From the NCBI RefSeq assembly GCF_900188005.1, contig NZ_FZNR01000021.1, positions 62,001 to 126,000 of the forward strand: a DNA stretch of 64,000 nt. The letters run 5' to 3'. A model generated the notes under the pieces. The model saw only the letters and a program-made list of their open reading frames with translations, made no database searches and was not told the origin of the DNA. The stretch comes from Actinoplanes regularis. GTDB lineage: Bacteria > Actinomycetota > Actinomycetes > Mycobacteriales > Micromonosporaceae. Shown here in pieces: positions 9,511 to 61,620 of the stretch. A program made the position numbers and the translations under genes. The stretch's first letter is position 1. Each line of letters begins with the position of its first letter.

Positions 9511-9600
9511 AAAAACCTCAACCCCCTTCCGGGTACGACCGATGGGGCCCCGTAGCCAGCCCTCTCGGGCCAAGTCCCGCGAGGCGGCACAACGCGACAC
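9511..9600 (+). repeat. Dispersed intergenic element, copy A
   Basis: Runs from a CTCAACCCC-rich lead through GGGTACGACCGATGG to CCAGCCCTCTCGGGCC and GTCCCGCGAGG. Shares this order with copies at 34555 (B), 38190 (C, minus), 55049 (D) and 61530 (E, minus). Central hairpin GCCC-TCTC-GGGC at 9559-9570. Lies after devR and before the SigB-like promoter. Confidence 0.65.
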
Positions 9601-34554: not shown

Positions 34555-34645
34555 AAGATCAAACCCCTGCTCCGGTACGACCGGTGGAGTCCCGTGGCCA
34601 GCCCTCGCGGGCCACGCCCCGTGCCGCACCCGCGCAAGGCGCCCC
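34555..34645 (+). repeat. Dispersed intergenic element, copy B
   Basis: GATCAAACCCCTGCTCCGGTACGACC, then GGTGGAGTCCCGTGGCCA, GCCC-TCGC-GGGC hairpin (34601-34612) and CACGCCCCGTGCCG. Nearest to copies A and E. The rest of the 573-bp space between the aminotransferase and the hydrolase holds two hairpins and imperfect GGGCTGGTTGTC repeats (34840s and 34900s). Confidence 0.7.
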
Positions 34646-34714
34646 GGCTCCAGGCCCGGCCGCGCCGCGAACCCTCGGCTGGTCCCGGTGGTGCTGTCCG
34701 GGCCGCCGACATCA

Positions 34715-38098: not shown

Positions 38099-38189
38099 CG
38101 TTCAGCCGCGCGGGTCGGGCTGGTTCGCAGGGGTCGTGTGGAGACCGCTGATACCGCCATCGTGACCAGCCGGGCCGAAGCGGGCCGGG

Positions 38190-38307
38190 ACGCGCGGCAG
38201 CGGTTCGGGGTGGCGCGGGCCTCGCGCGGGAGAGTCACGGGACTCGGCTCGAGCCTGGCCACGGAGCTCCACAGGTCGTACCGAGGAATGGATTTTTGTT
38301 CTTGAAT
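38190..38307 (-). repeat. Dispersed intergenic element, copy C
   Basis: Minus strand: TTCAAGAACAAAAATCC lead, CTCGGTACGACCTGTGG, CCGTGGCCAGGCTCGAGCC, GAGTCCCGTG, then GCGCGAGGCCCGCG. Very close to copy D over about 100 bp. Central palindrome GGCTCGAGCC at 38246-38255. Confidence 0.7.
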
Positions 38308-55048: not shown

Positions 55049-55160
55049 TTCAAGATCTTAATTTTCCGGTACGACCTACGGGTCCCGTGGCCAGGCTCGA
55101 GCCGAGCCCCGTGCCGGTGTCGCGCGAGGCCCGCGCGACCCCGGACCGCCGCCGCGCGTC
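55049..55160 (+). repeat. Dispersed intergenic element, copy D
   Basis: TTCAAGATCTTAATTTTCC, GGTACGACCTACGGGTCCCG, TGGCCA-GGCTCGAGCC (55094-55103), GAGCCCCGTGCCG, then TCGCGCGAGGCCCGCG and ACCGCCGCCGCGCGTC. Closest to copy C. It fills much of the 362-bp divergent gap between the membrane protein and the first FtsX-like gene; the remainder holds a short AT-rich stretch that may contain promoters. Confidence 0.7.
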
Positions 55161-55339
55161 ACGGCGGGGTCGGACCCCTGCCACGACCCCCGCCGCGACC
55201 GGTACCGTAACGCGGCCCGGTCGTCGAACACGCCGGATTCGTCGACGGGCAACACGGGGTTCCGTACCGTCGCGCCATCGGCGACAGCCGGCTGACGGCC
55301 CTCGGAGCGCACGGCGGAGTTCCAGGGGGTGAGACGGGG

Positions 55340-61460: not shown

Positions 61461-61529
61461 AAGCGGGCTGAGCGGTGACCCGCGGCGGCCGGGATCGCGC
61501 GGCCGGGTCGCTGTCGTGCGGATGCCGCG

Positions 61530-61620
61530 CGAGATCCGCACGGGGCGTGGCCCGCGAGGGCTGGAGGCGGGACTCCATCGGTCGTATCGGATGAAGGGGT
61601 TGAAATGGGGTTTCTTGAAG
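61530..61620 (-). repeat. Dispersed intergenic element, copy E
   Basis: Minus strand: CTTCAAGAAACCCC lead, CAACCCCTTCATCCGATACGACC, GATGGAGTCCCG, CCAGCCC-TCGC-GGGCC hairpin (61550-61561), CACGCCCCGTGCGG. Very close to copy B. It ends 53 bp before the P1 peptidase gene on the opposite strand. Confidence 0.7.

Follow-up and report, generated by a model that had tools for sequence, protein, structure and literature searches.

A high-copy, hairpin-forming intergenic repeat of Actinoplanes regularis with a head resembling an over-used word of the genus

Introduction

The described systems closest to the repeat reported here are the REP and BIME elements of enterobacteria and pseudomonads, which are high-copy intergenic palindromes that occur in inverted pairs, avoid divergent promoters and have a species-specific sequence, the foot of the REP hairpin carrying a tetranucleotide of the GTAG/GGAG type. 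ERIC and MITE-like repeats are imperfect palindromes of ~125 bp, also intergenic and devoid of coding capacity. Words of the uptake type are known mainly from Neisseriaceae and Pasteurellaceae, DUS reaching a density of roughly one per kb, and we know of no uptake-type signal in actinobacteria, to which the antibiotic and acarbose genus Actinoplanes belongs. Frye et al (2013; PMC3630211) present DUS as over-represented 10-mers with dialects, intragenic copies and inverted pairs.

Here, we describe a repeat present at five sites, A to E, in the window, i.e. the whole 64,000-nucleotide stretch of A. regularis DNA that was analysed. Similar to REP/BIME, it is a high-copy intergenic palindrome found in inverted pairs, with a species-specific sequence and an avoidance of divergent promoters; unlike them, it spans ~125 bp, forms two hairpins and has a head resembling a word also found in genes, and no RAYT link was found. 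It shares with ERIC and MITE-like repeats the length, the imperfect palindrome, the intergenic position and the lack of visible coding capacity, but no target duplication was found, single copies are common, and paired units, which come in several lengths, carry the heads on the outside. In the titles and abstract openings of the papers listed on Actinoplanes repeats or MITEs and on Streptomyces REP, the repeat is not described, and no paper on intergenic repeats in Actinoplanes was found; its literal sequence words appear, by title, in unrelated contexts only, and the excerpted text of PMC3364876 speaks of short repetitive contigs in general terms only.

Results and Discussion

Five sites in the window carry one repeat

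The initial annotation held that five intergenic sites share one ordered pattern, and this is confirmed. We trained a profile HMM on 41 copies, all of them located outside the window. At E ≤ 0.1 it returned five window matches, exactly A to E, at 9517-9583 (plus), 34556-34673 (plus), 38177-38300 (minus), 55052-55170 (plus) and 61488-61607 (minus), with E from 6.7e-25 to 1.1e-15. The same HMM gave 0 matches in the reversed window and 0 in 10 third-order Markov windows. Used alone as a BLAST query, copy B retrieved 43 matches from the genome, itself included. The ordered pattern stood, but not the length of ~90-110 bp assigned to it: a full copy measures ~125 bp, and the sequence model, whose search for copy ends covered 97 sources of the own genome, extended the 3′ end past the limits first drawn, by 14 bp in D, 16 bp in C, 34 bp in B and 50 bp in E. 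The lead proposed as TTCAAGA or CAAACCCC is AT-rich and poorly conserved.

Copies B to E are full length by both the sequence model and the HMM. Copy B (34556-34679, plus strand) lies in the gap between convergent genes for a class-III aminotransferase and an alpha/beta hydrolase, with its head GGTACGACC at 34574-34582 (plus strand). Copy C (38174-38300, minus strand) also occupies a convergent-gene gap, copy D (55052-55174, plus strand) is found in a divergent-gene gap and contains the exact word TTTCCGGTACG (see below), and copy E (61480-61607, minus strand) sits in a tandem-gene gap, oriented against the genes. Copy A (9517-9585, plus strand) is the weakest of the five: the sequence model and the outside-window HMM (E 1.1e-15) recover its 5′ half only, its 3′ hairpin not being recognised by the sequence model. 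The neighbouring genes are unrelated, as first noted, according to a Pfam scan of 10 window proteins.

The head and hairpin 1 are conserved among copies

A full copy consists, in this order, of the AT-rich lead, the near-invariant head GGTACGACC, hairpin 1 after CCAG, CCCGTG and a GC-rich hairpin 2. In an alignment of 125 copies, the best-conserved letters include GGTACGACC, TACG being invariant (125/125) and the preceding two G kept in 94-95%. Conservation is strongly uneven among the columns (chi2 2218, 92 df), with 8 of the 93 columns at ≥99% and 19 at ≤60%, which is not what uniform decay of dead copies would give. The highest pairwise identity is 88.9%; thus, recent copying is not visible.

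Hairpin 1 forms a stem of ≥4 bp in 87/125 copies, compared to 54.8 on average and at most 66 after dealing the 3′ halves among copies; it is kept by matching changes beyond the dealt-halves expectation. RNAalifold applied to 45 copies returned 3 pairs only, with no compensatory change and no supported structure, so that the hairpin test is the one line of evidence for a conserved structure. The folds predicted for each copy differ among copies.

The family is genome-wide and favours convergent gene ends

Five copies in 64 kb had suggested a genome-wide family, and the 10.03-Mb genome indeed holds at least 150. The sequence-only model R1, trained on 45 of the 52 first copies (7 were left out, copy A among them), matched 150/150 candidates scored there, with E 3e-9 for the weakest; since every scored candidate matches, 150 is a lower bound. 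The surroundings of 134 distinct copies were examined. As annotated for the window, copies lie between genes only, none of the 134 overlapping a called gene by >30 bp, and they fall into 74 convergent, 50 tandem and 10 divergent gaps. In sequence unselected for the repeat, drawn from 400 kb of the congeners G010 and G052 plus the own window, 26 of the 119 gaps of ≥130 bp are flanked by convergent genes, 58 by tandem genes and 35 by divergent genes, the neighbour classes being those of our own simple gene caller; convergent gaps are thus favoured and promoter regions avoided. Both orientations occur, again as claimed: in tandem gaps, 25 copies run along the genes and 25 against them, so that orientation is independent of transcription there. 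In convergent gaps, the match starts at a median of 26 bp past the same-strand stop and ends 125.5 bp before the opposite stop.

This placement bears on whether the repeat could be a strand-specific RNA element, i.e. a 3′-UTR, a transcription terminator or a small-RNA family. Such an element would suit the predominance of convergent gaps (74/134), the start shortly past a same-strand stop and the partial covariation in hairpin 1. The even split in tandem gaps argues against it, as do the RNAalifold result, the lack of a T-run after the hairpins of aligned copies (by eye) and the presence of the related word TTTCCGGTACG inside genes. Moreover, Rfam gave nothing at gathering scores in the window, and the six matches at E ≤ 1 around copy B are all far below the cut-offs, with none over the element. 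We consider a stranded RNA improbable; the small-RNA family or exported leader envisaged by the initial annotation finds no support in the 25:25 orientation or in any Rfam family at gathering scores.

Within large contigs, the repeat copies of the own genome are of mixed strand, as judged by eye. For TTTCCGGTACG, a polar signal of the KOPS/AIMS type was considered from congener G052, in which word places looked all-plus beyond ~2 Mb, and was discarded: the list covers part of the 403 places and is incomplete for the minus strand (a minus site near 2865953 is absent from it), so the strand pattern shows nothing.

The species range is patchy

The genus is taken here in the broad GTDB sense, the closest named relatives belonging to Actinoplanes and Paractinoplanes. 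The range search covered 39 other genomes, 23 from congeners and 16 from the order. Among the 23 congeners, a comparable family is present only in A. palleronii (G014; NBRC 14916), where 79/81 scored candidates match; G001, G005, G010 and G016 gave 1-3 weak matches each, and 34/39 genomes gave zero matches to the repeat model. Searching a collection of 84,980 species, in which the own genome is possibly absent, with a strict pattern made from the core of the own repeat detected no further species. A. palleronii does not group with A. regularis in either of two single-gene trees, which comprise 11 and 9 species.

The A. palleronii version, seen in 18 copies, differs in much of its sequence and retains the order, namely GGTACGA, GGAG, a CAG-hairpin, TCCCGTG, TCTCGCGCGA and CGCGC; its paired halves enclose an extra palindrome of the type GGCTGG...CCAGCC. 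At the A. palleronii site orthologous to C, this version is present in the orientation of the own copy C. Across relatives, the C-site comparison covered 43/80 loci: among the 43 named relatives, only A. aureus has TTTCCGGTACG within one mismatch in the first 300 bp past the C-site gene. G010 and G052 have TTTCCGGTACG in the C-site gap, with the orientation kept.

Long GGCTGG...CCAGCC palindromes were also noticed between gene ends in several Actinoplanes species (loci L111, L113, L119-L128) and, in the window itself, downstream of copies B and C. A repeat pair of the own genome at L363:1500-1830 contains the sequence GTCCGCAGGCT, which resembles the A. palleronii version; both sub-types are thus present in one genome.

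Paired copies and the possible modes of spread

Copies occur alone or as tail-to-tail pairs that form a large inverted repeat, the latter arrangement accounting for 22 of the 23 close pairs among the 134 copies. Measured from TACG to CGTA, 5/16 own pairs span 175-178 bp and two span 113 bp; 5/6 A. palleronii pairs span 252-258 bp. Heads at the outer ends and recurring spans, as well as the patchy species range, would fit a MITE, in which terminal inverted repeats bound a non-autonomous transposon whose transposase has been lost or goes unrecognised. However, close pairs are few (23 among 134 copies), and no target duplication of 4-9 bp was found in 22 pairs, in line with what had been noted for the window, although old copies may have lost one. 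Likewise, no transposase was found among the 10 Pfam-scanned window proteins, most of which flank A to E, as the initial annotation had it. A MITE origin is a possible, unproven part of the mobile REP/MITE-like element first proposed, and in our view an unlikely one.

The other part of that proposal, spread by a RAYT, can be weighed from the positions of Y1 transposase genes, the class covered by the genome search for a mobile partner. REP elements in the strict sense would also appear as intergenic palindromes in inverted pairs, and Y1_Tnp matches exist in the own genome (two) and in A. palleronii (three). Yet the nearest repeat to the first own Y1 gene (L029:4441-4893, ~150 aa, probably of IS200 type) is ~7.5 kb away, and the 50 kb on either side of the second are free of the 150 listed copies, a profile search of its 8-kb stretch giving 0; neither gene has a repeat copy nearby. 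The better of the two looks, by its motifs, like an IS200 TnpA. In addition, G052 and G067, both rich in TTTCCGGTACG, have no Y1 match, the own-type repeat being absent there as far as searched. A RAYT link therefore goes unsupported and appears highly improbable, while the REP-like class itself is supported.

The reading we favour, and hold to be probable, is that A to E are five members of a family of at least 150, representing a ~125-bp DNA repeat that is non-coding, forms hairpins and belongs to a REP/BIME/ERIC-like class. It draws on the copy number, the anatomy, the placement, the patchy species range and the likeness of the head to the genus word, all of which were observed. Such a repeat would work as DNA and not as stranded RNA, with the head as the recognition site of a putative sequence-specific DNA-binding protein. 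The family would have multiplied by copying in the own lineage and separately in A. palleronii, and its copies may persist where harm is least, mostly between convergent gene ends. Note that copying is something we infer, since no transposase, target duplication or empty site was found. Two further observations speak against this favoured reading: the C site, common with A. palleronii in place and orientation, fits descent as well as copying, and the asymmetry of 26 versus 125.5 bp in convergent gaps would also suit a stranded role. Taken as a repeat family only, it would give Actinoplanes a well-defined palindromic repeat with no RAYT partner shown.

The head resembles a word over-used in the genus

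All 134 own copies contain TACG, 118 GGTACG, 50 CCGGTACG and 5 the exact 11-mer TTTCCGGTACG; in 72/134, some place in the first part of the copy matches TTTCCGGTACG with ≤2 mismatches. The head thus resembles TTTCCGGTACG but differs from it, and the link between the two is one of resemblance. The first interpretation of the sites is, overall, partly supported; the likeness of the head to an over-used genus word was beyond its view. This resemblance hints at an undescribed genome-wide DNA signal.

The exact TTTCCGGTACG is present in 60/60 genomes of the genus sample, with 5-403 copies each against 0-5 for the reversed-word control, and outside the genus at 0-20 per genome. Its count exceeds that of its 33 one-base neighbours, averaged, ≥10-fold in 6/60, ≥5-fold in 20/60 and ≥2-fold in 54/60 genomes; the ratio is 7.4 in the own genome, 20.9 in G052, the best, and 0.9 in G040. 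In stretches unselected for the word, TTTCCGGTACG was found 4 times in genes and 9 between in G052 (5 and 8 for the 33 neighbours summed) and 3 and 4 times in G010 (3 and 11), giving 7 genic and 13 intergenic places in both combined, compared to 8 and 19 for all 33 neighbours. Over 600 kb of G052, two thirds of which were selected for holding the word, no genic 11-mer is more exceptional than TTTCCGGTACG; in an unbiased ranking of stretches of the own genome, G010 and G014, it is outside the top 14, whether genic or intergenic.

In G052, 19 of 55 classified sites are in called genes, and the close pairs within 150 bp are four inverted and four direct; the 55 come from 63 exact sites, those without a called gene on both sides being skipped, and 20 of the 30 stretches had been selected for containing the word. 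The 26 classified exact sites of the own genome divide into 12 in genes, 8 solo intergenic and 6 in long copies; they derive from 30 loci out of 91 places, with four skipped for a missing flanking called gene and one duplicate. A codon explanation (Phe-Arg-Tyr) of the genic sites is unlikely, since C- or G-preceded forms should then be commoner, and they are not.

A possible dialect and the uptake reading

The word seems to have a dialect, TTTCCCGTACG. In 400 kb of P. bogorensis (G003; L368-L387), TTTCCCGTACG occurs 26 times (21 genic and 5 intergenic), or one per 15 kb, versus 4 for TTTCCGGTACG, and in this unselected sequence the three highest-ranking genic 11-mers include both TTTCCCGTACG and TTCCCGTACGC, which overlaps it. 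The signal is modest, 9.8- to 11.2-fold compared to 9 to 9.4-fold for the best unrelated words of other species; in the same 400 kb, TTTCCCGTACG forms no close pairs and is absent from the intergenic top list. G064 leans to TTTCCCGTACG, with 26/54 one-mismatch places among the matches listed.

From these patterns in sequence, TTTCCGGTACG, with its dialect TTTCCCGTACG, might serve DNA self-recognition in the manner of DUS/USS and owe its spread to biased uptake and recombination. Two species would then have grown a palindromic intergenic arrangement, the repeat, around one version of the word. The word is like DUS/USS in being over-used in and between genes, in its seeming dialects and perhaps in its inverted pairs in one species; its presence in every genome of the sample, against 0-5 copies of the reversed word, its ≥5-fold excess over one-base neighbours in 20/60 genomes, with genic places in G052 and G010 too, the rank of TTTCCCGTACG and TTCCCGTACGC in P. 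bogorensis and the four close inverted pairs among the 55 G052 sites would all fit such a signal. Type IV pili have reportedly been seen on A. missouriensis zoospores, going by a 2019 title. However, the word is far sparser than DUS: the 403 copies in the 9.8 Mb of the richest genome amount to one per 24 kb, and the density of the dialect is similarly low. The exact form is present in only 5/134 own long copies, G040 is unenriched, and TTTCCGGTACG does not reach the 14 most exceptional 11-mers in the own, G010 and G014 stretches. In addition, the P. bogorensis signal barely exceeds that of unrelated words and comes with no close pairs, and in G052 direct pairs equal inverted ones. We found no competence data for the genus, and a search of the literature on over-represented DNA uptake sequences in Actinobacteria yielded nothing. 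We keep this reading low, as a doubtful one: the exact word is in 5/134 copies, only a minority of species show strong enrichment, and the G003 signal is modest.

A broader version, equally speculative and drawn from the same word counts, is that Actinoplanes may carry a self-recognition or genome-organising word, TTTCC(G/C)GTACG, with dialects, a version of which two lineages would have built into a high-copy palindrome; A to E would then be amplified landing sites of a reader protein. Were the self-recognition word real, it would be, as far as we are aware, the first uptake-type signal in actinobacteria. If the head or the word is a signal read by a protein, the questions become which protein reads it and whether Actinoplanes zoospores take up their own DNA.

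Finally, G003, G022, G049, G050 and G056 hold 558-1103 matches to TTTCCGGTACG within one mismatch, of which 37-69 are exact; further dialects are possible in these five genomes.
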